From: Asparagopsis taxiformis
Taxonomy: Eukaryota > Rhodophyta > Florideophyceae > Bonnemaisoniales > Bonnemaisoniaceae
Assembly: GCA_030407315.1 (NCBI GenBank)
Contig: JALQPE010001969.1
Location: 22,772-86,771 of the forward strand
Direction: 5' to 3'
Length of the DNA stretch: 64,000 nucleotides
Shown here: positions 2,073 through 59,746 of the stretch, one piece after another
Layout of the letters: each line of letters starts with the position of its first letter
How positions within the stretch are numbered: the stretch's first letter is position 1
Program-made: the position numbers and the translations under genes
The notes under the pieces: model-generated
Told to the model about the DNA's origin: nothing
Databases searched by the model: none
What the model saw: the letters and a program-made list of their open reading frames with translations, nothing else

Positions 2073-3430
2073 CGACGTCACCGCATCGCTTGGCCTCCCA
2101 TCGGCCCAATGAGTTTCTGATTCATCGGTGAACACGAACAGAAATGGTCTCACAGGCGCGCAGTGTAGAACTAATGATGATTGTCTGGGTGCGCATGTCT
2201 CGCGAATGAGGATGTTGAATCAGCCAATGTTACGCGATGTTCGGATGCGCATGTTGCTTGTCTGTGTGTCCCCACTGTGAGCTAGGTTTCTTGCGATTGC
2301 GACAATGACAAAAGTACAGATGGATAGGTCTGTGCCGCTGGCGCGGAATCTCCCTTTGTGTCCCGCCTGGAACTGACGCTTTTTTCTACACGAGTATGTT
2401 TCGCTGGTACCAACGCCGTCTGAAATTTATTAATTTATTTTCATCCATCGCTATTTTCCGAAATGTAGTTCACCGACATGCATACAACGGTACATGTTGA
2501 CATCGAGTTCTCTACATTCAGAGTGGTATAGGCGAATGCGTCCAACAGAAAAGACATACAAGATTGTGTATATCATGCTGCACATCAAGATCTCCTCAGT
2601 GTCAGTGGAACAGGAGAGACAGGTGTCCTTATGTCTCTTTCGTGTCAAACGCAACTGTGCTTCCGACAAAACCCCAAAATTCTCTCCGAGACAGCTGTCC
2701 CAATTCTGAATCACACTCAGCACTGAAAAAGTGTCCAAAAAATGTCCAAGCAACCATATTTATGCTCTGAACAGTCCTATTCGTAATCGAAATCACCGAA
2801 AACCCAAAGCACAGCGTGTTCTAAGGAATAGAAAATATTCTGTTAAAAAAAATAAATTCTGAATTTCTCGAAATCAGTGTTAATTTCTGGGCTGGCCAGT
2901 AATGCATTAGCTATCTGCTCTAAACCGATTCTAACAAGCAGAAAGAATCCTCTCCTTCATGACGATGCTCTCGAATTGAGTGCAATGCAACGGACTCCCT
3001 CCAGGAGAACGACAAAGCATCGTCTTTTGCAAGGCATTTCCGTACGAAAAATAATCGAAAAACATATTTGACTTTAACCTAACAGCTATCGCGAGCACCG
3101 TACTCAGCTATATTTCCTCTGTAATTTCCTTCCTCCAACCAATCAATAGCCGCTTGGTCACAGGCTTAAAAGCCTTCCACTATCTGTCCTATCCATCGAA
3201 GACCCTCGGAGGGTTCGATCCAGGCCTTCATCACCCATGATGGGTGTGCAACCCGAGAAATTGAAAATGGAACATATTGCGACAGGGACGAGATATCATT
3301 CAATGAAAGAGAAGTTCTCTTTCGTTTACTTTTTTCTAACAAGATTCTAAACGTCTACAAACCCTATGTCGTCCGTCCGTTTTCATCCCGGAGAGATGTG
3401 GGTGTGAGGTAAGACGCAGTGGTGATGTTG
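2073..3430. other. intergenic with short repeat fragment
   Basis: No convincing gene. A 26-bp piece at 2882-2907 (beginning AATTTCTGGGCTGGCCAG) matches the inner part of the hairpin repeat found complete at 4049-4232, so it is a fifth, very short relic of that family. A CACTATCTGTCC string at 3178-3189 is a weak candidate for the outer end of the large CACTA-type element. Confidence 0.4.
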
Positions 3431-3439
3431 TGTTGATTC

Positions 3440-3770
3440 CCACAGACGGAGGTGGAGGAGGTGGCTACGGAGGAAGCCTGGAGAACTTCTCCGGTACTGA
3501 CATCTCACATGTTGAACATGTGAGATGTCAGTACCCATGGATGAGAAGAAAAACATGTTGAGGTCCGGTTCGGATATTGTTGCCATTAACGGAGGCGGAG
3601 GAGGCGGCTACGGTGGAAGCCTGCAGAACATGTGACTCACATCTCGGAGATGTCAGTACCCATGGATGAGAAGAAAAGCATGTTGAGGTGCGGTTCGGAT
3701 ATTCGATCCATTAACGGAGGTGGTGGAGGAGGCTATGGTGGAAGCCTGGAGAAGAATAGAATAGTCCTAT
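3440..3770 (+). repeat. three tandem units, glycine-rich frame
   Basis: Three units of roughly 130-140 bp start near 3447, 3583 and 3711. Each contains a GGAGG-rich block read as GGGGGYGGSL on the plus strand, followed in the first two by ATGGATGAGAAGAAAA and a segment read as MLR.GSDI..ING. One short frame, 3632-3829 (65 aa), covers the last units. The first inter-unit space holds a 39-bp inverted repeat (3495-3533). This could be the coding remnant of a glycine-rich repeat protein or a subterminal repeat of the neighbouring element. I cannot decide which. Confidence 0.5.
3495..3533. repeat. 39-bp perfect inverted repeat
   Basis: Two 19-bp arms (TACTGACATCTCACATGTT and its exact complement) surround a single central G. 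A degenerate version with one arm lies about 130 bp downstream in the next tandem unit. Confidence 0.85.
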
Positions 3771-4048
3771 ACCCATGGATCACAAGAAAACGTTGTTGGG
3801 CTCCTTTTCGAAGCCCATTCGTCTCTTGAATAAATTTAGCACCCAAATCATATACGATTGCCGAGTTGACACCCCGTATGTCTCGTTGGTAGAAATAGCA
3901 GGGGTTCCACCACTCAGCTGACGGGAAGTAGTTACTGATTATATGAGATATGGCTTAGCTCCCGCCAAAACCGATAGCTCTGGGCTCAGGTTCTCCAAAT
4001 GTGGTTATACGAATGTGTTCTGACAATGCTAGAAGGCGAATATCTGCA

Positions 4049-4232
4049 TCCTGATTTGAATTAAAATTTGGGCTATTCTCAAAAACATGCACATGTGAAC
4101 ATGTTTTTGAGATGGGGGTGTGCCGTACGGCACAATTGACCGCCCAAATCGATGTTTTTTGCAATATTTTTTCTGCCCGAAATATTACAATTTCTGGGCT
4201 GGCCAGCAATGCATCTGAGCTGGACATCCCCA
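4049..4232 (-). repeat. hairpin repeat, copy 1 (inverted)
   Basis: Copy of a dispersed repeat seen also at 8004-8271, 36128-36390 and 59466-59746. Its landmarks are a foldback of CTCAAAAACATG around a short loop, the perfect 14-bp palindrome GTGCCGTACGGCAC, and TGGATGTCCAG-like ends. This copy is inverted relative to copy 2, so the methyltransferase gene between them is flanked by an inverted pair. It lies about 350 bp upstream of that gene. Confidence 0.85.
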
Positions 4233-4579: not shown

Positions 4580-5776
4580 ATGACGAATAAGCGCAGGCGC
4601 AACAGCAATCCGATCGTTGACGACGCAACCGTGCCAATTCTGCGCGAACCCGCTAGCCCTTGGGAGGATTCTAGTGACATGGGTACACGTCGAAACGTAG
4701 GTCGCGCCGCCCGCGAAACTACTCTCGCTGGCAAAGACTTCCTCCGCCTCTTGCTAGATTTGTTCGCCCACTCAAGTTTCGCAGACTTGACGGACAAGCC
4801 GGGAGGTTTCACATACGCGGACCTTGGCGCTTGGGTTGCGCAGGGCACGGAAGAACAATTTGCGGCGCTGCAAGGTCGACTCAGCATGGCCTTCAGCGGT
4901 CGTTCGAAGAATGCTGGAGTCGAGGCGGATGTTGCCGAAATCGTCATGGCAGAGATGAACGTTGAGCGAGCCAAGCAGATTGTTCGTCTGGCATTACCGA
5001 TTGCCGAGTTTTCAAGACAGGATGAGCGTATCGGGCAATGGGTTGAGCACTGCATCCTTTCTGGGATCGTGCCGCAGACCTTCCTTATTGGATGTAACAT
5101 GCTTCCTTCGCCACTACAGGCGCCGCAGCGCGTGGAACCAAGCGCCTTCGGTCTTGCTCCACCGGAAACGTTCGAGGTATTGATGTATTTCCAAGCGTTG
5201 TCTATCATCCGAAATCACAACAAGAACCTGCCGCGTCGCCGAATAGGCGACGCGGCCGAAGAGGGGAACGAAGCCGCACGCGTCCCAGCCCATCGGAAAA
5301 GCACTAATCGAGCTTGTTACGTGGTTCAAGTTTTATACCATGCTTGGACCGATGTGGCCTTCGCCGCAAAGTTTTCCAGCTTCGAAGAGTTGATGGCGCC
5401 GTACATCATTTTCGACAGCAGTGAGCATTGGTTTGACGTGCTCGATGAAGGTCTATTCGCACCGATGGAGCAGAAGCTAGATCTCTACCACGACAAAACT
5501 CCCCTATCTCATCCTGATGGATATGGTGGAAAAGTAGAGACAAGAACCAGTGCGCAGCACAGTGCATTTAGGGACCTTGTGAGGAAGTTCTTCGACCAGT
5601 TGCAGTTTCTTATCGTCAACCCGGACCTGTACACCTGGCCGGAGTCCGACCGCTGGGGGGCGCTGGAAATATACTTGTCAAGCGGAAATCCGGACAAGCT
5701 GCCAGCGTACTTTGACACCCTCGACGAAGAAGTTATGGCTGTCCTCCGCCCGGCACCACAAGCCGCGGACGCATAA
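4580..5776 (+). CDS. gene A, N-terminal part (left arm), cut by a stop
   Basis: 398 codons from the first ATG to TAA. It is not a separate gene. The right arm reads straight through this position into the methyltransferase (GCAGACAAG there, GCATAAAAG here), and the downstream frame at 5834 is in the same register. The domain family is unknown to me. It is mostly helical-looking, with a C-terminal pattern QVL..AW, then EEL..PY, then F.VLD at about residues 245-290. The same spaced pattern closes the separate protein at 45446-46744, so this is a shared domain in a small family. Residues about 1-77 exist only in this arm, because the right arm is broken at 39581. Confidence 0.75.
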   Translation: MTNKRRRNSNPIVDDATVPILREPASPWEDSSDMGTRRNVGRAARETTLAGKDFLRLLLDLFAHSSFADLTDKPGGFTYADLGAWVAQGTEEQFAALQGRLSMAFSGRSKNAGVEADVAEIVMAEMNVERAKQIVRLALPIAEFSRQDERIGQWVEHCILSGIVPQTFLIGCNMLPSPLQAPQRVEPSAFGLAPPETFEVLMYFQALSIIRNHNKNLPRRRIGDAAEEGNEAARVPAHRKSTNRACYVVQVLYHAWTDVAFAAKFSSFEELMAPYIIFDSSEHWFDVLDEGLFAPMEQKLDLYHDKTPLSHPDGYGGKVETRTSAQHSAFRDLVRKFFDQLQFLIVNPDLYTWPESDRWGALEIYLSSGNPDKLPAYFDTLDEEVMAVLRPAPQAADA

Positions 5777-5833
5777 AAGGTCCCCAAGCCGGTTGATGAC
5801 ACTCCCACTCGTCGCAACACAGGAGGGAGAGGT

Positions 5834-7783
5834 TTGGTTCCGTCGACAAGACACACAACCAAGCTTGAACTTGAGCCTGGGAGGACCAGTCTTACTGCCC
5901 AAGGGCCGTCTCCCCCGTCACCGTCACCCCATGCGACAGAAGAGCAGGAAAGTGAAGGGCAGGCTCTCGCAAAGGGCTTTCTTTCGAAAATGAGTCAGTA
6001 TTGCCGGGTGTACGACGTCCCTTTCGAAGATTTGGTCAGTGCCGACGAGAGCCGAGAACACGTGCCCATCACGGGCAACGTTCAGCTCATTCTGACTGAT
6101 CCGCCCTACAATGTTCGTCGGAAGAGGAACGATTCCAACTCTTCGTACGACAGGCTAACTGCAGAAGATATGCAGGCTAGCATCGAAGTGTTTGACGAGC
6201 TGTTGCGCCCCGGTGGCCACGGCATCGTGTTCTGCTCCGTTTTGCAGTTCTACGAATGGTTCCATTACTTGGAAACGTACAAAGGACCGCAGTCAGAATG
6301 CCCAACCGATGCTGCTGCCAGTGATGACGGGTCGGATGAAGAAGAGGTTACGTCCATGAATTCGGACTCCGAAGCATCGCAGCACAGTGGCGAAGAAAGT
6401 GCGGATGAGGAGGAGGAGGAGGACGAGGAGGAGGAGGACGTCGCTCGGAATTCAGTTTTCTTCGTTGACGAGGTACCTCTGTTGTTTGTCCGACTACCTG
6501 GGCACCTCTATCAAATGCCGGGGCGGAAGAGGTACCAACGCATGAAGATGGCAGAGGTCGCTATCCACTTCTGGAAGCGAGGTGTTCCGTTCAAGACTGG
6601 AAGCGAGATGGTGGCCTATAGGAACCACGGATACATGGACGGCACGTACCCGGCGTGGTGCAACGTCACCATCAATATGCCCGCCATCGATTCGAATGAG
6701 ATGGTGTGGCGAACAAGGAGCACAACCGGTGCTACGGTCAGAGTTCGTGCAGAGCAGAAGAGCGTCGCTCTCATGATGGAGTTGATCAGCCAGCATTCAC
6801 AGCCTGGTGATATTGTTGTCGATCCATTCTCTGGCACTTTCGCAACGGGAAAAGCAGCTATGAGCTTGCCTGAGCACCGTGTTTTCGTCGGCAGTGACAT
6901 GGACAAATTGTGTGTGGCACGATCGCTTCCAAAGCTGTGTGCTCTCATGTCACGTGTAATTCTTTCAAACAACACTGACATGAGGGTCACGACAGAAGCG
7001 AAACAGAGTGCTGAGAAGTTCTTGGCGTCCCCCTCTGTCACGATGCGTACACAGAGGGAACGGAGGATCATCGAACCCCCACCTGGCCTTCCCCTGTACC
7101 AGAGGTTCCCGAAATATATTCGGCAGTACCTCTGGCAGCTGTGCCCAGAGTCGATTGCGTCGCACGAGCACATGGAAAAACCGGTACATTATTGGCCACC
7201 TTCCCTGCGCCGCTGGTTGCAAACTGAAAACCCTCGCGTGATGCGGGCACACGATTGTGTTACGAAAAAATTGAGCGTTCGACCATCGCTGATTAAGCAT
7301 CCAAATGCAGGAAGAGGGCTCTTCGCTGAACAGACATTTAATGTTGGCGACGAAGTATGTGCATACTACGGAACTGTTGTGTACTCTGATATGAGCAAGG
7401 AGTCGATGAGGTTCGCGTACGGAGAGGGTCACATGGCGATAACGAAGGAAACATTCTTGATGTATGCCATCAAGCTGTATGCAACAGCGGAGGACGACGA
7501 AAACATCGAGCATCCAATTTGGATTGTTCCGGCTCCGTTCTGTTCGGCGCAGTTCATCAACGACCCGCGGTATTTGCGAGGTGAGGACACTCCGGCGGAA
7601 GACACCAGGCGGATGGCCAACGTCGAGTTTGTCGAGAACTACAGCAGCGGTTCGACGGGGAAGAAGCTCAAGGCGAAGGACCTAGAAAATCCGAAGATCA
7701 TTGTAGTACGTGCAATCCGCGATATCTGTCCGGGGCAGGAGCTCTACGTTCATTATGGGACAGCGTTTAGAGCATGGAATTAG
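5834..7783 (+). CDS. DNA amino-methyltransferase-SET fusion (left arm)
   Basis: 649 codons, in frame with the upstream part after the TAA at 5774-5776. The catalytic DPPY of amino-methyltransferases is at residues 89-92, followed by RPGGH and a hydrophobic strand. The AdoMet-binding motif DPFSGTFATGKAA comes later, at about 330-342. DPPY before the FSGT motif is the beta-class permutation (CcrM/MboII-like); DPPY rather than SPPY favours adenine N6, though cytosine N4 cannot be excluded. An acidic stretch (about 160-205) separates the halves. The C-terminus is a SET domain (about 485-645): GRGLFAEQTF at 493-502, VCAYYGTVV, a QFIND segment at 573-577 in the place of the usual NHSC, and GQELYVHYG at 634-642. 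No pre-SET or post-SET cysteine clusters are visible. AATAAA follows at 7814. The nearest known parallel is eukaryotic capture of bacterial-type amino-methyltransferases fused to chromatin domains. Confidence 0.85.
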   Translation: MVPSTRHTTKLELEPGRTSLTAQGPSPPSPSPHATEEQESEGQALAKGFLSKMSQYCRVYDVPFEDLVSADESREHVPITGNVQLILTDPPYNVRRKRNDSNSSYDRLTAEDMQASIEVFDELLRPGGHGIVFCSVLQFYEWFHYLETYKGPQSECPTDAAASDDGSDEEEVTSMNSDSEASQHSGEESADEEEEEDEEEEDVARNSVFFVDEVPLLFVRLPGHLYQMPGRKRYQRMKMAEVAIHFWKRGVPFKTGSEMVAYRNHGYMDGTYPAWCNVTINMPAIDSNEMVWRTRSTTGATVRVRAEQKSVALMMELISQHSQPGDIVVDPFSGTFATGKAAMSLPEHRVFVGSDMDKLCVARSLPKLCALMSRVILSNNTDMRVTTEAKQSAEKFLASPSVTMRTQRERRIIEPPPGLPLYQRFPKYIRQYLWQLCPESIASHEHMEKPVHYWPPSLRRWLQTENPRVMRAHDCVTKKLSVRPSLIKHPNAGRGLFAEQTFNVGDEVCAYYGTVVYSDMSKESMRFAYGEGHMAITKETFLMYAIKLYATAEDDENIEHPIWIVPAPFCSAQFINDPRYLRGEDTPAEDTRRMANVEFVENYSSGSTGKKLKAKDLENPKIIVVRAIRDICPGQELYVHYGTAFRAWN

Positions 7784-8003: not shown

Positions 8004-8271
8004 GACCAAGTTGAAATGGACGCCCGGTGGATGTCCAGCTCAGTTGCATTGCTGTCCAGCCCAGAAATTCTACAATTCAGGGCAGAAAAAAATATTGCAA
8101 AAAACATCGATTTCAGCGGGTCGATTGTGCCGTACGGCACACCCCCATCTCAAAAACATGTTCACATGTGCATGTTTTTGAGAATAGCCCAAATTTTAAT
8201 TCAAATCAGGACGTCTTCCGGACATAGGGGTGCTCGCGGCCTAGCTCGACAGCTGTAATTGTACCTCATTA
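8004..8271 (+). repeat. hairpin repeat, copy 2
   Basis: Full copy of the family, including the CTCAAAAACATG foldback, GTGCCGTACGGCAC and a 3' segment CTAGCTCGACAGCTGTAATT that is shared only with copy 4. It ends about 170 bp before gene B, and copy 4 ends about 265 bp before the gene at 60012. The family may therefore act as, or land in, promoter regions. Confidence 0.85.
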
Positions 8272-8443: not shown

Positions 8444-10727
8444 ATGCCGCCGCGTATTGCGAAGAAAGCTCCAAAGCCTCCGGGCCTCCAGAAAAACCGG
8501 TCAGCAGCTGCTGTATCGAGTGCCCGACAATCCCGTGCGAAGAAGCGGTGTGGGCCTACCGGCAGCATTGAACCGCGGTCCGGTAGTCGCAAGACGGACC
8601 GGCGCAGAACTGGGGATCCGCAGCGAGAAAGTGAGGAAGGAGGAACGGCGCGGAGAGAGATGGGGCTTGACCGAGGCAAGCGTGCTCGCAGGGACAGTGA
8701 ACATGATGATGATGACATGATAGTGGCTCAAAACATGTTGGAATTGCGGCAGAGTGCTATGGCAAAGGTAGTTCCTCCCGGGTTGGCAGATGCGGAGGTG
8801 CTGCAGACGGAGTCCCAGCCGGGGGTTCGCGAGACACTGGAGGCTGTGACCCCCACTGCGCCAACTATGCCGAGTACATCAGCCCCAGCAGGTAATGCAG
8901 TCAGGGACCCGAGGATAGCGGCAAGGGATGTTGTTTCTGAGCAACGTTCACAGGATGCCAACTATCATCGGCGGTCAGGTGGTACTGAGGGGAGAGAGCA
9001 GCCGGAGTGCGGGCCTCGTCACAACAGACTGTCATTGGTGCCAAATATGCGCGTAACGCCCCCGCGACGTCAGGCTATTGCCGATGGAGGACATCATATT
9101 CCCGATAGCGTGCGAGATGGGGGGACGGTGAGGGCAGAGAGGTTGCATCCGCCGGAATCCATCGATTTAATGGCGAGTCGCATCAATGCGCAGAAGAAGA
9201 AGATCGCGGAGCTGGAAAAAAAGTGTTTAGCCAGGACATAGCAAACAAGGCGCTCACCACGGAGATAGTTGCGTTGGAGGCTAAGGTGAAGACTCTGCAG
9301 GCGGAAAATGCCAGCCTTACTGCAATTGCGAGAACAGGTAGAATCAGTGATCACGGTGGCGGTAAGTCGAAAATACAGAAAGCCATTCCTGTGAAATACC
9401 TTGGAGTTCTTAGGGCGGTTGAGGAAAACCTGACAAAGTGGTGCAAGAACGAGACTATGGAGCTGGACCCTATAGCGGAACAAACGCAGAGACGTTGGAC
9501 TGGACGTACCATCGAGGTAGAGCCGGTAGAAGGGACACTTTGGAGCGAAAACGGTGTAGGATATATTGCTACCCCTCCGGGCTACATCATCAAGAATCTG
9601 CAGTGGTATACACCTTCGTACAGAGACGAGAGTGATCTGCTGAATGACTTGGTGCGACACGTACTGCGTCAAAGTCCGTGGTGTGATGTGTTTTCCGATG
9701 AGGAGCAGCGTGTGTGCTGTCAAGAGGCTGTGGCGGGGAGCAAGGAATTGAAAGTGAAGGTGACGCAGAAACTGTCCGACGTGATGAGTGCACGGAAGCG
9801 TAATGCGAGGGACAGATTGTTCGGTTCGCTGGGGTACACGAAATTAATGTCTAGATGCACGATGCTGACGACGCGAGCTGAGATGGACGAGCGAGAGGAT
9901 CAAAAGCGCGAAGCGTCTGAGAAGCTTTTGAAACGGGAAAGCAACGGTGATTTGGATATGGGGAGGTGGCGAACGGCACCGTTCTCAGAGCTGCGATACA
10001 GCAAAGGCTTGGTTCCTGACAGCTTCGAAATGGAAGTGAATGGTGATGCATGGTTTAACAACCGAGTAGCTGTGAATGTGCTGGACATCTTCAGGGGTTA
10101 TTCGATACGACCAGAACAAGTAATGGACATAGAGACGAGCATACTAACGCTGGCGCGCCTGGATGCTTGGCTAGTGACTACTGTGGAGTGTTTGGATGAA
10201 CCGAAGGGGAAAGGAGGTGCACGGCAGAAGGAGTTTACAAGGCGGTACAGTCAATATGTGGGGGTAGCTTTTCAGCAATTAGTTGGTATGGTGGTGTACT
10301 GCATGTCTTGTCTCCAAGGCTCGCAAGCAAGGGAACAAACGGACGTTGTCGAGAGCGAACAGCGGACTAGTGCACAGTCACGGCATGTGTTTGCAAGCCG
10401 TACTGTGACAGAGAGACTGTTGAAGTGTGGCAAAGCGGAGAGGGGTCTGGAATTGTTCATGTCGTTGATGATGTAAACCGCTGCTCATCACTTGTTCTAG
10501 TGTCCGAGGATTGGATTCAATCGCATATTACGTCAAACCTCGGTGCTGTAATGGATTGTGTGATTGCGCAAGGACTAATTGGCGCAGAACTTTTCGTCGT
10601 TGACCCATATGCTGGACACCTGAGTGCAAACCTGAATGTCGAAATCAATGCCCCACAGTATGGGGGCATGGAGCGGCGCCATGCAGCCACTGCTGATAAC
10701 GGTTTTGGCGTAATGGAGGATGGTTGA
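8444..10727 (+). pseudogene. gene B, coiled-coil protein of unknown function (left)
   Basis: Three overlapping frames (8444-9241, 9223-10476, 10425-10727) are one gene of about 760 codons broken by two single-base losses. One is an A7 tract at 9216-9222 where the right arm has A8. The other is a missing A at about 10410 (GTGACAGAG here, GTGACAAGAG on the right). The N-terminus is basic and Ser/Pro/Arg-rich and probably disordered. A leucine-zipper-like coiled coil follows (SRINAQKKKIAELEKK, then ALTTEIVALEAKVKTLQAE). The rest is a helical domain with a conserved-looking WCDVF, RARDRLFG-like and RLDAWLV region. I do not recognise a family. The order coiled coil then helical domain resembles 56921-58444. 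It is co-oriented with gene A and separated from it by hairpin repeat copy 2. Confidence 0.6.
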
Positions 10728-10804
10728 AATTAGTGCAGTAAATGTTACGTTGGCTAGAAGGCTTATCATGTAGTACATTATCAATAGAGTGCTGCGATTT
10801 AGAT

Positions 10805-13800
10805 TTATTCTTCTTCATTATCATCTGTGAACTGGTAATCAGTGTTGGTGTAGAAGCGGTTGAGATAGAAACGGTGGTCCGACCAGTGCATTTGTTTCGT
10901 AAATGGCTTGACTGGAAAGTTACTTCGTACGATGTGCACGGTGACAGATATAGTAGATGCAGGAATGAGGTCAAACCAAGGACCACCTGCACTGTGGGAT
11001 GCAGTGTCATTGCTGTCAACGGATCCGTTGTCCGGGTCCCATGTGGACCACTTTAAACAAATGCACCCAAGTGATTTTTCCACAGCGGTTTTTGGGGCAA
11101 AGCAGGTCATATACTGCACGAAAGCGAGTTCTACAGGTTGAAACAGGTTTGGAGACTGCAGGCGTACCAGGGCCAGGACGCGCCCTACCCATATGGTTCT
11201 GTAGTCATCGGCAGTTCCGGAGATGACGACAAAGGAGTACTGCGATCTCTATGCGGGGCCGAATGATGAAGTTGCAAAGACGCGCTGCTGCTTGTGCCTC
11301 GACACGTTTGTGGGGCGAAGCATGCCACTGTGCGGGTCAAAGTCGTCGGCATCTGGGACGTACCCTCCCATGACGTAGGCGGACTTTACCGCGGTGACGG
11401 AAATGTCCATGTCATTTATTGGAGGGCCTTCTGCCGTGGCGCGCAGTCTAGCGAGGGTGAACGCTTGTGCAGCTGTGTCACCGAGTTGCTGGAATAGCGT
11501 TATGGTGCCAGACGGGAACGAGGAGTTGTGCAGAGGCAAAAGAGTGGCAGGATCGGGCTGTCCGTCGATATCTGCAACGAGGAGGGTTGCATCGGGCAGC
11601 AGGGAGGCAAAGTCGTGCAGTGCAACGGTGAATCCGTCGCGAACGAGTACTGCACCGTCTGTGGGCGATATCATGCGTGGGTTTCCCAATGTGTTCGATG
11701 GGGTGTGACCAGTTGGAGTGGCCAAGGAGAATTCCATGTGGCGAATAGTCTCTTCCATGGCTGTGGAGCGCCTTCGAGAGGTTTTCCTATAACTCTGTTT
11801 GAACAGAAGATGCGAGTGTTCGTAGGGGCCTGCATCGATGTGTTCCAGGGCGCCATATCTCTGCAAGTCACCGGGAAGATGGTCTAGAAGATGGAACTTT
11901 AAAGTTTTGAGACCTGTGGTGTGGAATGGGCCGAGGGTGGAGAGCATTGATTGTTTGAAATAGGAAATGGAGTTCTGGAGGCTTTCGAGTTCGGCGGCAG
12001 TCCAGTGCTTGATGCGACCGCGTTTCATGACCCATGCGACGAGGTCAGAGTATTGCGTGCAGATGGAAGTGAGGGGGGCTGTCTCTACTTCGTCACAGCA
12101 TGTGTCAATGAATGCTGCGATGAAAGGGAACACCATGTCGACATGGTGATAGTCTTTGGCTGCGAGCATGCCGCGTATGCCGTCCTCCGTGAAGAGGCCG
12201 TTCAAATTGGTGCCCTTCTCACCCTTGGAGAAGTCGACATGAAGACCGGTGATGTAGTAGTCGCGTTCGATAGCGGACAGAATGCTGTTTGAGCCGGCGA
12301 GGATGGATTTTTTCACCTTCTTGAAGGTGCGAGGTGTCCCGGAATGGGAGGCAGTGGTGGTGGTGAGGTCTGGGGAGCTGAGGCGGTGGACAATGCACTG
12401 TTTGATGAGCTTTGAGATGCCGAGGTGGAGATTGTGCAGAGGCTCGAAGGAGAAAATGTTGTAGGGGTCTAGGGACTGTTGGTGGGTAAAAGAGCGGTCG
12501 ATTCGAGGACAGAGTGTTGTTCGAGGAGGGAGAGAGCTTCGAGCGGAGCAGTTGTATGCTCCTGAGCGCTCTCTTGGCGTGCAGAGCGTGTATCATCGAG
12601 GGAGCGGGGCTGGTGTGGCGCGGTGGATTCAAGTTGAGTGGCGGGGATGTAGCAGCGGTGGCAGGGATGTGTGGTGGTAGTGCTGTTGCGAGTGCATGAC
12701 AGCTCTTTGGCCTCTGGAAAGTCGCAGCAATAATTGGCTAGGATGGGAAAGCATTGGCTGGCAGTTGCAGTGGAGTCTGTGCAGGGGAACCCGGAAGAGA
12801 ACGCGGTGGATAGGGACGAAAACACTTTTTCGAGTGCTTTATGAAGAATATCAATTTTGCGAGCGCGACTAGCAGAACTAGAGGTTGTCGGCATTTCATC
12901 ACCGAACAAGGCGTTGGACGAAGGGTTAACAATGTACGGAAGACACCCGACGATGGTGAGGCCGGTACGGATGCAGTGGCGACGGAGGGGGGCGGAGAAG
13001 TTGAGCAGTGTGACGTGTATGGGGTATGCGACGATTGCGGAGCTCTTGAGGCTTGTGCTGCTCTTGTCGGAGTACACTTGGAGGAGGCCGGCAAAGGAGG
13101 AAGGTGTGGGATCAGTTTCCTCTGCCCATACGACCTGTGGATCTTCCGAGAGCTTCACGCGCTGTCTAGTAACCTGGTGCAGCGTTTTCGCGAATTCTGT
13201 GTGTAGGGGATGAGAAAATATTGCGGTGCCGTCTGGGGCGGTCTGTGGGGAGGGGTGGAAGAGAGTATTTTGGTCGTTAGCCAGTGCTAACTGCCTGCGG
13301 AGCATGTCGACTGGGTCGCGGAGGTACAGCTGTGCCGAGTACTTACCAGTTTTGTCTGGAATGATGTGGCTCTTGTAACCTTCGGTGCGGAAATGTGATT
13401 CGACCATGGAAGCGGTAACGTGGCGACATTCTTCTACGGTGCGAACGGCGCTGTTGAACTTTTCTAGGGAGAATGCGGGGTCTTGTAGGATGGTGATGAC
13501 TTCGCTCACGCGGCCAGCGCCGGCCTTGTACTCGAGGGTTGTGAGACTGGCGGCGAGGGATTGCACGAGGAGGTCTGCGCGGGAGGGGGTTGAGGTTGGT
13601 GGCAGTGGAGCGTCACAGGGTGAGTCGCTGGAGGAACCACGACCAGATTCTGGGTCTGGGGAGCTGGGTTGCGGGGAATCATGGTCGCCGTTTCGAGCAG
13701 GCTCATGGGTGACGGCAGGGACACGAGCGTTGTTGAAATGTTGGGGAGAGGGGTTGAAACGGTAGCGACACGTTCGCTCATGCAGCGCGAGCGCATAAGC

Positions 13801-13842
13801 ATCTACGCAGTAGTAGAAGCATCCTTCATACTTGCATTCCAT
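10805..13842 (-). pseudogene. gene C, Plavaka/CACTA-like DDE transposase (left)
   Basis: Frames 13842-12469 and 12316-11249 are one gene split by loss of a C at 12471-12476 (C3 here, C4 in the right arm). The N-terminus has a C2HC zinc finger (C3, C8, H21, C25). The catalytic core reads LLQVYSDKS (D259), AYPIHVTLLNFS, CDFPEAKEL (D374), PCHRC (394-397), then LDPYNIFSFEPLHNLHLGI and LKFHLLDHLPGDLQRYG. This order is characteristic of Plavaka transposases of the CMC superfamily. The frame stops at TAG 11249-11251 but stays open for another 148 codons (QYSFVVISG, VGRVLALVRL, VELAFVQYM, KQMHWSDHRF) down to 10805, which looks like the usual C-terminal region. The same TAG is present in the right arm. 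It is divergent from the short-exon unit at 14.5 kb. Confidence 0.75.
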
Positions 13843-14491: not shown

Positions 14492-15640
14492 TACCCTCGA
14501 GGGTATGCATTGAGGTAAGCGTGGGTTTTGAGTTTGACTATTTCCGTTGATGCGATATTTTTCATTGGAAGCCTGTTGACTCATGGTGTGTATTGAGCGG
14601 AGGATGGAAGAGAGGTACGTGAAGTTTTGAAAGTGTGCTGCGAGGGAAGGTTGGTTTTGAGTCTGACTGTTGTAGTTGATTCCGATGTTGTGTAGATGAT
14701 GCAGGAATGTTGATGACGGAAGGTAAGTTTCATTGAGTGCCAAGATGTGCTTTGCGAAGATATGGACTGCTGACTATGATTATTACTCATTGCAAGGTTT
14801 TTGGATCATGGTTTGTATTGTGTGTAGGATGGATGAGAGGTACATTTGCGAGTTCTCAGGGTATGTAGCGAGGGAAACGTTGGTTTTCAATCTGACTGTT
14901 GCGATTGATTCCGATGTTGCGTAGGTGATGGAGGAATAGTGATGACGGAAGGTAAGTCACATTGGGCGCCCAGACCGGTTGTGCGAAGATGCGGAATGCT
15001 GACTACTTTTCTTGGCTACACGATTACGTGATTTATGGTTTTTATTGTGTGCAGGATGGAACAGGTAAGGTAAGTGTGCGAGTTTTGAAAGTAAGCAGCG
15101 AGGGAAGGTTGGTTTTGAGTCTGACTATTTCCGTTGATGCGATATTTTTCATTGGAAGCCTATTGAGTCATGGTGTGTATTGTGTGGAGCGAAGGTAAGT
15201 GTGCGAGTTTTGAAAGTAAGCAGCGAGGGAAGGTTGGTTTTGGGTCTGACTGTTGTGGTTGATTCCGATGTTGTGTAGATGGTGCAGGAATGTTGATGAC
15301 AGAAGGTAAGTTTCACTGAGCACCAAGACTTGTTTTGCGAAGATATGGACTGCTGACTTTGATTATTCATTGCAAGGTTTTTGGATCATGGTTTGTATTT
15401 TGTGTAGGATGGATGATTCACTCATCCTCTCGGAGAGGTAAGTAAGGGAGTTTCTAGGATATCTGTCGTGGTAAGCGTTGCTTTTGAATCTGACTGTTGG
15501 GGTTGATGTTTTGGATGTGATGCAGGAGTGGTGAAGCAGGAACGGCAGGACTGAAGGAGAGTGAAGAAGGGATCTAGGAAGATGGGGAATGAAGCTGTGA
15601 AGTGTTTCTGGTATGTGTATATTTTCGGGCATACGATAGA
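14492..15640 (+). other. gene D, array of micro-exons and short introns (left)
   Basis: Introns of 81-105 nt begin GTAAGT/GTAAGC/GTACGT/GTACAT, carry CTGAC branch-like motifs and end in TGTGTAG or GCAG. The exons they delimit are 14603-14614 (12 nt), 14696-14722 (27), 14828-14839 (12), 14925-14951 (27), 15055-15064 (10), 15190-15194 (5, doubtful), 15279-15305 (27), 15408-15437 (30) and one from 15526. The 12-, 27- and 30-nt exons are multiples of three and all fit one phase. In that phase they read repeated peptides of the types DAGMLMTE and GWMR, ending GVVKQERQD then TGA. The unit of one 27-nt exon, one 12-nt exon and two introns (about 230 bp) has been tandemly duplicated. In this phase the first exon, ending at 14514, would contain a TGA, so either translation starts later (an ATG lies in the 27-nt exon) or the RNA is non-coding. 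No family recognised. Confidence 0.55.
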
Positions 15641-15878
15641 AGTGAGAGTCGTTTCAAGTGGTGTAAGATTTTGCTGACCATGTTCGTGTTTGATGTCTTG
15701 ATGATTTAATGGGCTGGGGTGGTGTCGAGGAAAGCGGGATGGAATTGGGAAGGAGCGGATTTTTTGTAATCAAGGTCGTGAGGGTTCTTGAAGTATGTGC
15801 GGATGGTGGTGCATGGCGTTCGGATGGTAGGGAGAACGCGATAGTGAGGGAGATGGGTGATCGACGATATGCTGACAG
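15641..15878. other. no gene seen
   Basis: This is the space between the short-exon unit and the minisatellite. It may hold the 3' end of unit D; nothing else is evident. Confidence 0.3.
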
Positions 15879-16062
15879 GTATTTTGTATTCTGGCTGGAT
15901 ACGTATTTCGTATTCTGGCAGGATACATATTCCGTATTCTGGCTGGATACGTATTTCGTATTCTGGCTGGATACATATTCCGTATTCTGGCTGGATACGT
16001 ATTTCCTATTCTAACCGGGTATTTATTTCCTATTCTGACCAGATATGTATTCCCTATTCTAG
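15879..16062 (+). repeat. 24-bp minisatellite (left arm)
   Basis: About seven to eight units of GTATTCTGGCTGGATACGTA plus TTTC or TTCC, alternating between the two endings, with the last units diverged. It is mirrored at 27494-27678. Open frames across it on both strands are a by-product of the period being a multiple of three. Confidence 0.85.
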
Positions 16063-16177
16063 AGAGACGTATTGTATACGAGCAGTTTCCTAAATGAGAG
16101 AATAAAATACGGTCCGATATGGGCCCTGAATTTACCATCCGCTGTAATTTCTTCCCTCCCGCTGATATATTGTATAC

Positions 16178-16378
16178 TGGATGTCGGGTCCTAGTATTCC
16201 GCCATATGTACTAGAGAAAGTGGATGTCGGGTCCTAGTATTCCGCCATATGTACTAGAGAAAGTGGATGTCGGGTCCTAGTATTCCGCCATATGTACTAG
16301 AGAAAGTGGATGTCGGGCCCTAGTATTCCGTACTAGAGAAAGTGGATGTCGGGCGCCATATGTACTAGAGAAAGTGGA
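16178..16378 (+). repeat. 43-bp subterminal tandem repeat (left arm)
   Basis: Three full and two internally deleted units beginning TGGATGTCGGGTCCTAGTAT and ending ACTAGAGAAAG. The right arm has four more complete units at 27198-27370. Together with the related GGACGTCCGCGTCC and ACTAGAGAGACTGGACG motifs up to 16507, it sits at the element edge, as subterminal transposase-binding arrays do in CACTA elements. Confidence 0.8.
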
Positions 16379-16507
16379 CGTCCGCATCCAAAAATTTTTT
16401 ATTTTTTTTGGACGCGGACGTTCATTTGTTCTAGTAAATCTCGGGGCCGACTAGGACCCGTACTAGAGAGACTGGACGTCCGCGTCCACTTCCGAAAACA
16501 CAGACGT

Positions 16508-17186: not shown

Positions 17187-17276
17187 CCTCGACAGAGTTG
17201 CACTCGCCCCCGGCCGAACGAACAACTATCCCCCCGGACACAACCTTCCGCTAGCGCGCCACAAACACCATTAGGT

Positions 17277-27061: not shown

Positions 27062-27197
27062 CACTACGTCTGTGTTTTCGGAAGTGGACGCGGACGTCCA
27101 GTCTCTCTAGTACGGGTCCTAGTCGGCCCCGAGATTTACTAGAACAAATGAACGTCCGCGTCCAAAAAAAATAAAAAATTTTTGGATGCGGACGTCC

Positions 27198-27370
27198 ACT
27201 CTCTCTAGTACATATGGCGGAATACTAGGGCCCGACATCCACTTTCTCTAGTACATATGGCGGAATACTAGGGCCCGACATCCACTTTCTCTAGTACATA
27301 TGGCGGAATACTAGGACCCGACATCCACTTTCTCTAGTACATATGGCGGAATACTAGGACCCGACATCCA
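27198..27370 (-). repeat. 43-bp subterminal tandem repeat (right arm)
   Basis: Four complete units of the array seen partly deleted at 16178-16378. Confidence 0.8.
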
Positions 27371-27493
27371 GTATACAATATATCAGCGAAAACCGGGAGG
27401 GAAGAAATTACAGCGGATGGTAAATTCAGGGCCCATATCGGACCGTATTTTATTCTCTCATTTAGGAAACTGCTCGTATACAATACGTCTCTC

Positions 27494-27678
27494 TAGAATA
27501 GGGAATACATATCTGGTCAGAATAGGAAATAAATACCCGGTTAGAATAGGAAATACGTATCCAGCCAGAATACGGAATATGTATCCAGCCAGAATACGAA
27601 ATACGTATCCAGCCAGAATACGGAATATGTATCCTGCCAGAATACGAAATACGTATCCAGCCAGAATACAAAATACCT
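27494..27678 (-). repeat. 24-bp minisatellite (right arm)
   Basis: Mirror of 15879-16062. Confidence 0.8.
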
Positions 27679-27914
27679 GTCAGCATATCGTCGATCACCC
27701 ATCTCCCTCACTATCGCGTTCTCCCTACCATCCGAACGCCATGCACCACCATCCGCACATACTTCAAGAACCCTCACGACCTTGATTACAAAAAATCCGC
27801 TCCTTCCCAATTCCATCCCGCTTTCCTCGACACCACCCCAGCCCATTAAATCATCAAGACATCAAACACGAACATGGTCAGCAAAATCTTACACCACTTG
27901 AAACGACTCTCACT

Positions 27915-29063
27915 TCTATCGTATGCCCGAAAATATACACATACCAGAAACACTTCACAGCTTCATTCCCCATCTTCCTAGATCCCTTCTTCACTCTCCT
28001 TCAGTCCTGCCGTTCCTGCTTCACCACTCCTGCATCACATCCAAAACATCAACCCCAACAGTCAGATTCAAAAGCAACGCTTACCACGACAGATATCCTA
28101 GAAACTCCCTTACTTACCTCTCCGAGAGGATGAGTGAATCATCCATCCTACACAAAATACAAACCATGATCCAAAAACCTTGCAATGAATAATCAAAGTC
28201 AGCAGTCCATATCTTCGCAAAACAAGTCTTGGTGCTCAGTGAAACTTACCTTCTGTCATCAACATTCCTGCACCATCTACACAACATCGGAATCAACCAC
28301 AACAGTCAGACCCAAAACCAACCTTCCCTCGCTGCTTACTTTCAAAACTCGCACACTTACCTTCGCTCCACACAATACACACCATGACTCAATAGGCTTC
28401 CAATGAAAAATATCGCATCAACGGAAATAGTCAGACTCAAAACCAACCTTCCCTCGCTGCTTACTTTCAAAACTCGCACACTTACCTTACCTGTTCCATC
28501 CTGCACACAATAAAAACCATAAATCACGTAATCGTGTAGCCAAGAAAAGTAGTCAGCATTCCGCATCTTCGCACAACCGGTCTGGGCGCCCAATGTGACT
28601 TACCTTCCGTCATCACTATTCCTCCATCACCTACGCAACATCGGAATCAATCGCAACAGTCAGATTGAAAACCAACGTTTCCCTCGCTACATACCCTGAG
28701 AACTCGCAAATGTACCTCTCATCCATCCTACACACAATACAAACCATGATCCAAAAACCTTGCAATGAGTAATAATCATAGTCAGCAGTCCATATCTTCG
28801 CAAAGCACATCTTGGCACTCAATGAAACTTACCTTCCGTCATCAACATTCCTGCATCATCTACACAACATCGGAATCAACTACAACAGTCAGACTCAAAA
28901 CCAACCTTCCCTCGCAGCACACTTTCAAAACTTCACGTACCTCTCTTCCATCCTCCGCTCAATACACACCATGAGTCAACAGGCTTCCAATGAAAAATAT
29001 CGCATCAACGGAAATAGTCAAACTCAAAACCCACGCTTACCTCAATGCATACCCTCGAGGGTA
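27915..29063 (-). other. gene D, micro-exon array (right)
   Basis: Mirror of 14492-15640 (left and right positions sum to 43555). All splice donors, branch-like CTGAC motifs, TGTGTAG acceptors and 12/27/30-nt exons are conserved. The first donor is at 29040, and the 27-nt exons lie at about 28833-28859, 28604-28630 and 28250-28276. The 38-bp palindrome lies just beyond the first donor. I saw no lesion distinguishing this copy from the left one, in contrast to genes A, B and C. Confidence 0.5.
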
Positions 29064-29078
29064 GAGGATGGAACGAAG

Positions 29079-29116
29079 GTACGTGCGCGAATCTTGATCA
29101 AGATTCGCACACGTAC
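29079..29116. repeat. 38-bp near-perfect palindrome (right arm)
   Basis: Mirror of 14439-14476, centred on TTGATCAA, with the same single mismatched pair. Confidence 0.8.
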
Positions 29117-29712
29117 AAAGCAAAGGCGGTCAAAGAATCTCAGTCGGTGATGAGGGGGGAGTGGAGCCTGCGGCATCGACCGGACAGCTTTCAGCGTCCG
29201 CTTAAGTCTTGCTGTGCATACTCGAAATCATCGCCGGCAGTGAGATTGAGTATGGCCCAAGCCATGGTCTCTGAATCCCCGAACAATGAGATCCGGATCG
29301 AGAACAACGAATATAAACATATAATCATATATATGAGAATCCATTTGCTTTCCTTACATGATCCGTGGCATATCCGCTGTAAACCACATTCAGATTCCAC
29401 GAAGTTCGGAAATAAAAAAGTTTATTATTACAAATGAATTAATTGAAAATTCATGTCCCAGGCAGTCGTTCGTCCTTCCATGCACACGTTGCCAGCACGC
29501 AATGTGATGTAACAGTTGGAAATGATTGAACTCTCGGTTAAATTCCACCGTTGGGATGTCAGCTGGAGTGAGCACAAAACTACTACCCACAAAACTACGA
29601 ACACGTTACATTCCAAGTCTCGAAAGCACCACAAAAATAAAATTGGTCGCATCTGGACGGCACAGTCTCCCCTGTTCAGCTCGCAATCCTCCGTTTTGCG
29701 TCAAAACTCGAC

Positions 29713-32700
29713 ATGGAATGCAAGTATGAAGGATGCTTCTACTACTGCGTAGATGCTTATGCGCTCGCGCTGCATGAGCGAACGTGTCGCTACCGTTTCA
29801 ACCCCTCTCCCCAACATTTCAACAACGCTCGTGTCCCTGCCGTCACCCATGAGCCTGCTCGAAACGGCGACCATGATTCCCCGCAACCCAGCTCCCCAGA
29901 CCCAGAATCTGGTCGTGGTTCCTCCAGCGACTCACCCTGTGACGCTCCACTGCCACCAACCTCAACCCCCTCCCGCGCAGACCTCCTCGTGCAATCCCTC
30001 GCCGCCAGTCTCACAACCCTCGAGTACAAGGCCGGCGCTGGCCGCGTGAGCGAAGTCATCACCATCCTACAAGACCCCGCATTCTCCCTAGAAAAGTTCA
30101 ACAGCGCCGTTCGCACTGTAGAAGAATGTCGCCACGTTACCGCTTCCATGGTCGAATCACATTTCCGCACCGAAGGTTACAAGAGCCACATCATTCCAGA
30201 CAAAACTGGTAAGTACTCGGCACAGCTGTACCTCCGCGACCCAGTCGACATGCTCCACAGGCAGTTAGCACTGGCTAACGACCAAAATACTCTCTTCCAC
30301 CCCTCCCCACAGACCGCCCCAGACGGCACCGCAATATTTTCTCATCCCCTACACACAGAATTCGCGAAAACGCTGCACCAGGTTACTAGACAGCGCGTGA
30401 AGCTCTCGGAAGATCCACAGGTCGTATGGGCAGAGGAAACTGATCCCACACCTTCCTCCTTTGCCGGCCTCCTCCAAGTGTACTCCGACAAGAGCAGCAC
30501 AAGCCTCAAGAGCTCCGCAATCGTCGCATACCCCATACACGTCACACTGCTCAACTTCTCCGCCCCCCTCCGTCGCCACTGCATCCGTACCGGCCTCACC
30601 ATCGTCGGGTGTCTTCCGTACATTGTTAACCCTTCGTCCAACGCCTTGTTCGGTGATGAAATGCCGACAACCTCTAGTTCTGCTAGTCGCGCTCGCAAAA
30701 TTGATATTCTTCATAAAGCACTCGAAAAAGTGTTTTCGTCCCTATCCACCGCGTTCTCTTCCGGGTTCCCCTGCACAGACTCCACTGCAACTGCCAGCCA
30801 ATGCTTTCCCATCCTAGCCAATTATTGCTGCGACTTTCCAGAGGCCAAAGAGCTGTCATGCACTCGCAACAGCACTACCACCACACATCCCTGCCAACGC
30901 TGCTACATCCCCGCCACTCAACTTGAATCCACCGCGCCACACCAGCCCCCGCTCCCTCGATGATACACGCTCTGCACGCCAAGAGAGCGCTCAGGAGCAT
31001 ACAACTGCTCCGCTCGAAGCTCTCTCCCTCCTCGAACAACACTCTGTCCTCGAATCGACCGCTCTTTTACCCACCAACAGTCCCCTAGACCCCTACAACA
31101 TTTTCTCCTTCGAGCCTCTGCACAATCTCCACCTCGGCATCTCAAAGCTCATCAAACAGTGCATTGTCCACCGCCTCAGCTCCCCAGACCTCACCACCAC
31201 CACTGCCTCCCATTCCGGGACACCTCCCACCTTCAAGAAGGTGAAAAAATCCATCCTCGCCGGCTCAAACAGCATTCTGTCCGCTATCGAACGCGACTAC
31301 TACATCACCGGTCTTCATGTCGACTTCTCCAAGGGTGAGAAGGGCACCAATTTGAACGGCCTCTTCACGGAGGACGGCATACGCGGCATGCTCGCAGCCA
31401 AAGACTATCACCATGTCGACATGGTGTTCCCTTTCATCGCAGCATTCATTGACACATGCTGTGACGAAGTAGAGACAGCCCCCCTCACTTCCATCTGCAC
31501 GCAATACTCTGACCTCGTCGCATGGGTCATGAAACGCGGTCGCATCAAGCACTGGACTGCCGCCGAACTCGAAAGCCTCCAGAACTCCATTTCCTATTTC
31601 AAACAATCAATGCTCTCCACCCTCGGCCCATTCCACACCACAGGTCTCAAAACTTTAAAGTTCCATCTTCTAGACCATCTTCCCGGTGACTTGCAGAGAT
31701 ATGGCGCCCTGGAACACATCGATGCAGGCCCCTACGAACACTCGCATCTTCTGTTCAAACAGAGTTATAGGAAAACCTCTCGAAGGCGCTCCACAGCCAT
31801 GGAAGAGACTATTCGCCACATGGAATTCTCCTTGGCCACTCCAACTGGTCACACCCCATCCAACACATTGGGAAACCCACGGATGATATCGCCCACAGAC
31901 GGTGCAGTACTCGTTCGCGACGGATTCACCGTTGCACTGCACGACTTTGCCTCCCTGCTGCCCGATGCAACCCTCCTCGTTGCAGATATCGACGGACAGC
32001 CCGATCCTGCCACTCTTTTGCCTCTGCACAACTCCTCGTTCCCGTCTGGCACCATAACGCTATTCCAGCAACTCGGTGACACAGCTGCACAAGCGTTCAC
32101 CCTCGCTAGACTGCGCGCCACGGCAGAAGGCCCTCCAATACATGACATGGACATTTCCGTCACCGTGGTAAAGACCGCCTACGTCATGGGAGGGTACGTC
32201 CCAGATGCCGACGACTTTGACCCGCACAGTGACATGCTTCGCCCCACAAACGTGTCGAGGCACAAGCAGCAGCGCGTCTTTGCAACTTCATCATTCGGCC
32301 CCGCATAGAGATCGCAGTACTCCTTTGTCGTCATCTCCGGAACTGCCGATGACTACAGAACCATATGGGTAGGGCGCGTCCTGGCCCTGGTACGCCTGCA
32401 GTCTCCAAACCTGTTTCAACCTGTAGAACTCGCTTTCGTGCAGTATATGACCTGCTTTGCCCCAAAAACCGCTGTGGAAAAATCACTTGGGCGCATTTGT
32501 TTAAAGTGGTCCACATGGGACCCGGACAACGGATCCGTTGACAGCAATGACACTGCATCCCACAGTGCAGGTGGTGTAGGACTTAACTGGCGTTTAGACG
32601 TAATGACTTGGGTAGTCGTCCAAACGTCTCGAGTAGTCGCCGGAGAGGCGGCTTCGCACTCCTGGCTTTTGTTAACCCGAAGCGGTAAAGCGTAGTCGCA

Positions 32701-33592
32701 CTGCCGACGACCGTCCACTGGCCTCGACTCGGTAGGTGGTAGAGCGGTTTGAATCGGAAGGATCTTGATCACCCTTAGAGGAAAATCCACCAGGGCGACA
32801 CACGAGCCAACGGTGGCTAGGTCGGATCACGGAAACAGGCGGGCGTTTTAGCGGTTAGTCAACTCAGAACGGACGGCGCGACACACAGTGTATGTCGGTT
32901 CCGAGCACTCACGCTTAGACGAAACCGTTGACCTTGATCAGCCTCACACGCGTAGACGTCGTGTTGGCGTTCCGTGGTAACCCGGGGACCACGGTACGTT
33001 ACGCACCCACGCCGTGATGCGGAACGGAACAATCCCTAAGACGGAAACGATAGACACAAGTGTCGAAAACAATGCGTCACCTCTAGGATTGACTTGGATC
33101 GGTACCTTAGAGGGGGTTTGTTACCTTTTACTAATTGGAGAAGGGTCACTACTTGTAATTGCGTACCGGGGCCGAGTGGTCCGTCCCGAGGGCCCAATGG
33201 GGCGGGCCGCGCCGGCGGCCGCGGTGGTATTGCAATACGTGTACTACGACCAATAACCCTACACGTGGCGCTCGCCATGCTCGCATGTGCGCCCGCCAAT
33301 TCTACATAATTTCGAAAATTTCCAAATTACGCATGGAAACTGCTGGTTTCGAAACGATAGCTACTGGCGGATGCATTGAGTGCTCGCCCGTTTCAGCTCT
33401 TGTCCCACAGGTGGTCCTTGGTTTGACCTCATTCCTGCATCTACTATATCTGGCACCGTGCACATCGTACGAAGTAACTTTCCAGTCAAGCCATTTACAA
33501 AACAAATGCACTGGTCGGACCACCGTTTCTATCTCAACCGCTTCTACACCAACACTGATTACCAGTTCACAGATGATAAAGAAGAAGAATAA
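29713..33592 (+). pseudogene. gene C, Plavaka/CACTA-like transposase (right), LTR-interrupted
   Basis: Frames 29713-30963 and 30923-32308 are one gene split by an extra C at 30946-30950 (C5 here, C4 in the left arm). The position broken on the left (C3) is intact here (C4), so the two copies are damaged at different places. The zinc finger, SDKS, DFPEAKEL, CxxC and HLPGDLQRYG motifs are as in the left copy. It shares the TAG after SSFGPA. Beyond that TAG the frame is open but is interrupted in the HSAGG-PWFDL segment by the solo LTR 32575-33409, and resumes to end at 33592 (FTDDKEEE). Confidence 0.75.
32575..33409. mobile_element. 835-bp solo LTR with 5-bp target duplication
   Basis: Absent from the left arm. 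It starts TGTAGGAC and ends GTCCCACA (TG...CA, near-complementary ends). It is bounded by GGTGG at 32570-32574 and 33410-33414, while the left arm has a single GGTGG. It holds no gene. The insertion followed the inverted duplication and destroys the C-terminal part of transposase C in this arm. Confidence 0.85.
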
Positions 33593-33669
33593 ATCTAAAT
33601 CGCAGCACTCTATTGATAATGTACTACATGATAAGCCTTCTAGCCAACGTCACATTTACTGCACTAATT

Positions 33670-35956: not shown

Positions 35957-36127
35957 AATGAAGCCTTCCCGGAAGCGATGGAAGGATTGAGTTGCACGAG
36001 ATACAAAAAAAATTGCTGTATAGTGTCGGTAACCACAACGGTCTGCGATGAACGTTCAGGTCAGGTCAAGTACCGGAGAATACGCCAACAGCCCAGATTG
36101 TATACGGTAGGCAGTCATCAACAGTAT

Positions 36128-36390
36128 TTAATGAGGTACAATTACAGTTGTCGAGCTAGGCCGCGAGCACCCCTATGTCCGGAAGACGTCCTGATTTGAA
36201 TTAAAATTTGGGCTATTCTCAAAAACATGCACATGTGAACATGTTTTTGAGATGGGGGTGTGCCGTACGGCACAATCGACCCGCTGAAATCGATGTTTTT
36301 TGCAATATTTTTTTCTGCCCTGAATTGTAGAATTTCTGGGCTGGACAGCAATGCAACTGAGCTGGACATCCACCGGGCGTCCATTTCAAC
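36128..36390 (-). repeat. hairpin repeat, copy 3
   Basis: Mirror of copy 2, with the same foldback and GTGCCGTACGGCAC palindrome, between genes B and A of the right arm. Confidence 0.85.
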
Positions 36391-36616
36391 TTGGTCTTGT
36401 ATTTTGCATCTGCACGCATAACAGCAACCAAGCAGTCAGGTTCACTGCTCGGACGAAGTGCACCTAGAGTGTGAACGATTGGTTTTTGACAGGCGAGTAC
36501 TGCTCAATAGGTTTCACCCTGGACTAATGGTGGCTGGACATGCTGCATTATATGATATACTTCAACTCTGGAACGTAGCTTTATTTGTAGTCGAAATGAA
36601 AACATCTTTCGTGACC

Positions 36617-59115: not shown

Positions 59116-59430
59116 ACTACATTTTTTGATCTCAAACTCAGTAGTGCCAGAAATGGAATATTTCGGGCAGGAATCAACCCGACAGGTGCGGAAGCCGTGT
59201 GCCGTACACTTAGGCGTCAGAAACGATGGTGCACAAGTGCAACCCTGAGCAGCACCCCAAATTTGTGAATCATCAATTTGTAATTCCGCAACGGGTGAAA
59301 AGTTTCTACGCACCAACACCGACCTTCCCTGCCCCGAGTCCTTGAACTTCCTGTAAGCACCAACTGTAAGGCTAAATGGCGTCTCACGAAGGGTCAATAC
59401 AGGCTCAATACGCCAGAGGACAGGTCTGGT
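59101..59430 (-). pseudogene. Cys-containing gene fragment cut by repeats
   Basis: The 154-codon frame 59565-59101 begins inside hairpin repeat copy 4. Only the part from about LRETPFSLTVGAYRKF onward is unique sequence. It has SVLVRRNFSPVAELQIDDSQ and a Cys-rich end (GCTCAPSF, CRVDSCPKY). The 5' side is replaced by the repeat and the 3' side ends at the GGCAGTA field, so this is a remnant of an unknown gene. Confidence 0.3.
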
Positions 59431-59465
59431 CCTTGTTCCATCATGGTCCCACCCCACTCTCTCAC

Positions 59466-59746
59466 GACCAACCTGAAATGGACGTCCGGTGGATGTCCAG
59501 ATCGATTGCACTGCTGGCCAGGCCAGCCCAGAAATTCTAAAATTTCGGGCACAAAAATCTTGCAAAAATCAACGATTTGGGCGGTCGATTGTGCCGTACG
59601 GCACACCCCATCTCAAACATGTTCACATGTGCATGTTTTTGAGAATAGCCCAAATTTTAACTCAAAGCAGGGTGTTCCCCGGATAAAGGGGTGCTCGCAG
59701 CCGCCCCAAAAGCCGCCTAGCTTGACAGCTGTAATTTTAACACATT
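59466..59746 (+). repeat. hairpin repeat, copy 4
   Basis: Same orientation as copy 2 and sharing its 3' extension (CTAGCTTGACAGCTGTAATT). It stands alone, outside the inverted arms, showing that the family is independent of the large element. Confidence 0.85.

Follow-up and report, generated by a model that had tools for sequence, protein, structure and literature searches.

A Plavaka-type transposon of Asparagopsis taxiformis encodes a predicted DNA amino-methyltransferase joined to a SET domain

The window analysed here, a 64,000-nucleotide stretch of the red alga Asparagopsis taxiformis (contig JALQPE010001969.1, positions 22,772 to 86,771), holds at 4580..7783 of the plus strand a gene that joins, in one frame and in this order, an N-terminal domain, a DNA amino-methyltransferase and a SET domain. 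The N-terminal domain (4580..5773, plus strand) comprises ~400 residues without a Pfam match, close to the ~420 residues of unknown domain that an initial annotation of this DNA had placed there. The motif series listed in that annotation (DPPY, an acidic stretch, DPFSGTFATG, GRGLF and GQELYVHYG) was borne out by reading the frame, where DPPY stands within TDPPYN. Motif IV (DPPYN) stands N-terminal of motif I (DPFSGTF), with an acidic insertion separating the two, and motif IV ahead of motif I is the order of beta-class methyltransferases. A single in-frame TAA at 5774-5776 splits this copy (copy 1) into an open reading frame (ORF) of 398 aa, counted from the ATG, and one of 668 aa, counted from stop to stop. 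The latter matches N6_N4_Mtase (PF01555; 6080..6907, plus strand, residues 83-358 of the ORF, including the acidic insertion) with E 9.4e-16 and 58.9 bits against a curated cut-off of 26.7, and SET (PF00856; 7310..7759, plus strand, residues 493-642) with E 8e-7 and 29.9 bits against a cut-off of 22.4. Beyond these two, the Pfam scan of the fusion ORF gave no family above its cut-off; no chromodomain was matched in the fusion gene or in its homologue P0001, so a layout like that of the rotifer enzyme N4CMT was not found. Thus, as the initial annotation had proposed and as both profile matches confirm, the fusion polypeptide combines a beta-class DNA amino-methyltransferase with a SET domain, and it is carried in a mobile element.

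The proposal of a single gene at 4580..7783 held in part: the window copy is interrupted by the TAA, and stop-free copies occur elsewhere in the assembly (141.5 Mb, 3,156 contigs). In a protein search with P0001, the best 43 of 4,135 candidates all span residues 1-1065 at 98-99% identity without a stop, and, with the methyltransferase-SET part as DNA query, the best 40 of 1,118 candidates are all full length and at least 99% identical; as counts of the best-scoring matches, under a scoring that favours intact copies, 43 and 40 are lower bounds from which the intact share is not derivable. Because these 43 matches run through the site without a stop, the TAA is neither a constant feature nor an intron, and an intron or read-through across it was ruled out. 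The right part of the element recurs as a second copy at 27067..39581 on the minus strand (~99.1% identical, with its right end at 27067 and truncated at 39581), which contains copy 2 of the gene (36617..39581, minus strand), which has no stop and lacks the first 77 residues. A third, partial copy (59351..64000, the window end, plus strand) consists of the left part with the element's divergent gene, its frame broken. Both window copies of the fusion gene are therefore damaged, and intact copies are abundant elsewhere.

Using a 183-bp repeated unit of the element, 20 loci were fetched, 14 of which contain the whole gene, and in six of these it is one ORF, 1060-1068 aa long and starting at the same ATG. 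The ratio of nonsynonymous to synonymous differences (pN/pS), which is based here on few differences and non-independent pairs, was 0.00-0.58 over the 15 pairs of these six intact genes; summed by region, it was 0.30 for the N-terminal domain, 0.38 for the methyltransferase and 0.16, the lowest value, for SET. Against the six intact genes, the stop-bearing copy 1 gave 0.53-0.87 and copy 2 gave 0.36-0.43, and the two window copies gave 0.69 against each other.

A search of 5.8 billion proteins returned seven homologues: P0001 (98% identity, 1065 aa) and six others of 961-1071 aa at 26-32% identity, all of which align over the full length with the same three-part layout. A repeat search of the protein database using the alignment returned P0001 only. 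The motifs DPP(Y/F)N (DPPF in one homologue), GGH and DxFxGTF are retained in 7/7, as is the order of motif IV before motif I, and P0001-P0005 also retain the GxG, ND pair and Tyr of the SET domain. Across the eight alignment rows (the seven homologues and window copy 2), Pfam matches at E <= 0.01 were obtained for N6_N4_Mtase in all eight and for SET in six. A viral or prokaryotic source of the whole protein gained no support: IMG/VR and GTDB contigs gave, among the matches listed, only partial relatives of the methyltransferase part and none of full length. The model of the N-terminal domain is mostly helical and of low confidence (mean predicted local distance difference test, pLDDT, 56.4), and it had no match in the PDB at E <= 0.001, a result that speaks for neither a new nor a known fold. 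A divergent relative of this domain was also seen in the window at 45164-47160, in two frames (E 2.2e-11 and 1.7e-4 in a comparison with the ORFs of the window itself), with ~380 extra residues ahead of the domain and no methyltransferase match downstream.

The element carrying the gene is bounded by 34-bp terminal inverted repeats with two mismatches (CGTCTGTG...CACAGACG). The right repeat (16473..16506, minus strand) marks a sharp end, beyond which the flanks differ between copies: all 20 loci, which include two from the window, share their sequence up to CACAGACG and then diverge into 17 distinct flanks (L099 and L104 taken as one). The left end, read in contig C1919 (at 19786), begins CGTCTGTGTTCTCGG and is common to 21 loci with 16 distinct flanks, near-identical flanks being taken as one. 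In contig C88, the middle of which was not read, the left and right ends lie 20,774 bp apart and enclose the gene. The element is far larger than first thought and reaches beyond the window; its upstream part kept in copy 1 is 2882..4048 (plus strand), with homology to other copies starting at 2882 in 17 of the 20 loci. Pieced together from the window and the fetched loci, the order runs from the left end through the divergent gene, several 183-bp units, the methyltransferase-SET gene and an inverted unit to ORF2, a Plavaka-type transposase on the opposite strand, subterminal repeats (14503..16382, no strand assigned) and the right end. The inverted repeat 4049/8211 does not delimit a small element of 4.2 kb: homology between copies continues 6 kb further left, as far as the fetched loci extend, most loci contain more than one 183-bp unit, and the ends lie at 16506 and, in C1919, at 19786.

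No target-site duplication was obtained from C1919, C88, C221 or C1706. In C88, where both ends were read, the right flank does not carry on the sequence that runs without interruption at the corresponding site of L126; the predicted stretch in C1919 did not contain the right end, and a pattern search for the right junction was also empty; the predicted stretch in C221 did not contain the left end; and in C1706 the right-end flank is that of C88 and C1707, and the predicted left-end stretch matched neither the element nor the left flank of C88. Frames resembling, by eye, a Ty3-type integrase and chromodomain (16506-18383) start exactly at the element's right end in the window, and the left flanks of the C1919 and C88 copies are also Ty3-like; with such flanks at all three places, Ty3-like retroelements may be frequent targets.

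The transposase occupies 11249..13842 on the minus strand, split into pieces of 457 and 355 aa, the piece at 12472-13842 matching PF18759 with E 7.9e-20 and the other having no Pfam match. In a comparison of the best 43 fusion-gene matches with the 40 transposase matches listed, seven contigs appeared in both lists, and in six of these the transposase follows the fusion gene 4,695-4,698 bp downstream (one of the six, C1620, has an additional transposase 73 kb off). The seventh is C2192, where ~60 kb separate the listed copies and another fusion-gene copy lies 4,696 bp from the transposase. The spacing is 4,705 bp in C221 and 4,692 bp in the window, the spacing comparison drawing on 11 of the 40 rows of the DNA search. 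Fusion gene and transposase thus travel together. According to the available part of PMC12730594, CACTA/EnSpm elements have termini 5'-CAC..GTG-3', PlavakaA TGT..ACA and PlavakaB CATCA..TGATG, with a Plavaka target-site duplication of 2-3 bp. The termini CGTCTGTG..CACAGACG rule out a classical CACTA element. The mobile element of the initial annotation stood; the transposase, there called CACTA-type, is of Plavaka type by its PF18759 match. By its transposase, the element is Plavaka-type, and we place it in no named Plavaka lineage, since its termini fit neither PlavakaA nor PlavakaB and a target-site duplication was not obtained.

Of the remaining features, the 183-bp unit lies at 4049..4229 (plus strand) and, inverted, at 8029..8211 (minus strand), between the fusion gene and ORF2; it is repeated within the element in most fetched loci. 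All four units of the window contain the perfect 14-bp palindrome GTGCCGTACGGCAC (at 4120, 8127, 36260 and 59591), for which 100 shuffles gave a mean of 0.00. ORF2 (8444..10989, plus strand) encodes a coiled-coil-like protein with weak coiled-coil matches only, and its frame is broken in both window copies. The divergent gene (plus strand) runs from ~60012 to the window end and, in L118, over 6544-9999, where no stop occurs in at least 1,152 codons before the locus ends; its frame is broken in L108, L111 and the window. It matched no Pfam family, had no homologue at E <= 0.001 in the protein database and gave in PHROGs a single weak match of unknown function (E 0.031). Read by eye, it contains a DGLHR motif, which we take to be ParB/sulfiredoxin-like, and nearer the C-terminus PHND...GHVQHAGAG...R, presumably as in 2-oxoglutarate oxygenases. 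Elsewhere in the window we observed a 785-bp inverted repeat (1-784 and 20009-20792, 97% identical), a 1,307-aa open frame to which Pfam assigned no family (22393-26316, minus strand) and a direct-repeat array (54294-55126) with a period of ~118 bases and copies 94-98% alike.

What might such a protein do for the element? We see an even chance that it marks the element's DNA with N6-methyladenine (6mA) and nearby lysines with methyl groups, and that it thereby likely keeps the element expressed and mobile. The N-terminal domain, perhaps together with the repeated 183-bp units, would guide the protein to the element's DNA, where the methyltransferase half would place 6mA; the SET half would methylate lysines on nearby histones or on the transposase, and both marks would hold the element open to transcription or transposition, probably against silencing. 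Adenine is the probable target because the best solved relatives of the methyltransferase half are N6-adenine enzymes, and lysine methylation is the expected activity of the SET half because MLL-type and SETD8 enzymes rank best among its relatives. That the marks would act against silencing is suggested solely by how many intact, near-identical copies there are. The activity of either half, the target base, the target lysine and the benefit to the element are all predictions from sequence.

Several observations weigh against this reading. The high copy number may reflect weak defence by the host or efficient transposition; flanks common to several contigs mean that alleles may be among the 43 places; and in 8 of the 14 whole-gene loci the gene is disrupted, as it is in both window copies. 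The paucity of differences behind the pN/pS values and the missing target-site duplication belong here as well. In P0006 and P0007 the SET signature is gone and the methyltransferase motifs are present, which makes lysine methylation the less secure half and suggests that DNA methylation could be the constant function and lysine methylation a dispensable one; moreover, in all five SET-bearing homologues the motif that we take to be NHS, with a tyrosine that we take to be catalytic, reads ND (His to Asp). The model of the fusion protein is of low confidence (mean pLDDT 55.9, predicted template-modelling score 0.36). Of the structure check on both halves proposed at the outset, the SET fold was recovered; for the methyltransferase half, Foldseek ranked M1.HpyAVI at the top (E 1.9e-5) but with a template-modelling (TM) score of 0.33 on the target and a root-mean-square deviation of 18.9, and the VIA-align rows cover the SET part only. 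With a weak model, a poor superposition and SET-only rows, the support for the methyltransferase fold comes mainly from sequence. An N4-cytosine enzyme (rotifer) ranks lower among the relatives, with E 0.48 at best in one search and E 1.6e-3 in Foldseek, and the product of the methyltransferase half may be N4-methylcytosine (4mC) instead of 6mA.

Some of the same evidence fits other explanations. The methyltransferase could serve transposition itself, in that methylation of the 183-bp units or of the terminal repeats would likely adjust how the transposase binds, with the SET half methylating the transposase or acting as a mere binding module; taken jointly, we consider this possible, if on balance unlikely. 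Methylation-sensitive transposases are known from IS10 (with Dam) and Spm, and the repetition of a unit with a perfect palindrome, the subterminal repeats close to the right end and the two homologues that have lost the SET signature, as a structural role of SET would allow, all agree with it; the retention of GxG, ND and Tyr in 5/7 homologues and the low pN/pS of the SET region argue against it. The disrupted copies would be expected if the gene were a passenger, captured once and then copied along without function for the element, yet at least 43 full-length uninterrupted places, pN/pS below 1 and a three-part layout that persists at 26-32% identity make this rather improbable.

It is likewise improbable that the enzyme represses, marking competing elements or surplus copies of its own for silencing, as proposed for rotifer N4CMT, which deposits 4mC at transposons within a silencing loop (available part of PMC8885841): N4CMT belongs to the host, whereas the present writer is a transposon gene with no fewer than 43 near-identical, uninterrupted copies.

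Returning to a protein that marks its own element, a more far-reaching version, which we regard as doubtful, is a portable chromatin-state cassette, in which one polypeptide would write DNA and lysine marks on copies of its own element, and the divergent gene, with its putative ParB-like start and 2-oxoglutarate-oxygenase-like end, would supply the corresponding DNA-binding and mark-removing half; if true, the transposon would bring its own write-and-erase system, independent of the host's. Provided that the enzyme is active, methylation of DNA and of histones (or other proteins) would come from a single molecule of a selfish element, so that covalent fusion would couple the two marks. In that case 6mA as a functional, writer-driven eukaryotic mark would become testable, since a single genome offers the writer in many copies along with its likely targets, and flanking DNA for comparison.

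Parts of this arrangement have precedents. According to the available part of PMC12730594, SET-domain genes sit in HarbingerS and MuDR transposons, the latter of Phytophthora; these are likewise DNA transposons bearing a SET gene, but they have transposases of other families, and SET is there described without a joined DNA methyltransferase. The same text reports TET/JBP genes in Plavaka and other CMCT/KDZ transposons of fungi, which share with the present element a Plavaka-type carrier and an epigenetic enzyme as cargo; that cargo is a dioxygenase acting on methylcytosine as opposed to a methyltransferase-SET protein, and the termini differ too. Retrotransposons of Symbiodinium and charophytes, as described in part of PMC5890265, are also mobile DNA encoding its own DNA methyltransferase, but their enzymes are C5-cytosine methyltransferases, their carriers are retrotransposons, and SET is not mentioned in that part. 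N4CMT of bdelloid rotifers resembles the fusion in joining a bacterial-type N6_N4 methyltransferase to a chromatin domain, though that domain is a chromodomain, a reader, and not SET, and the gene is a host gene outside any transposon (PMC8885841, same part). M1.HpyAVI, MboIIA and CcrM share the beta-class sequence motifs and are bacterial enzymes without a SET domain. DNA methyltransferase, SET and TET/JBP genes are thus each separately known as transposon cargo; no amino-methyltransferase-SET fusion was found in the openly licensed PMC papers searched, outside which lie Repbase Reports and most subscription journals.

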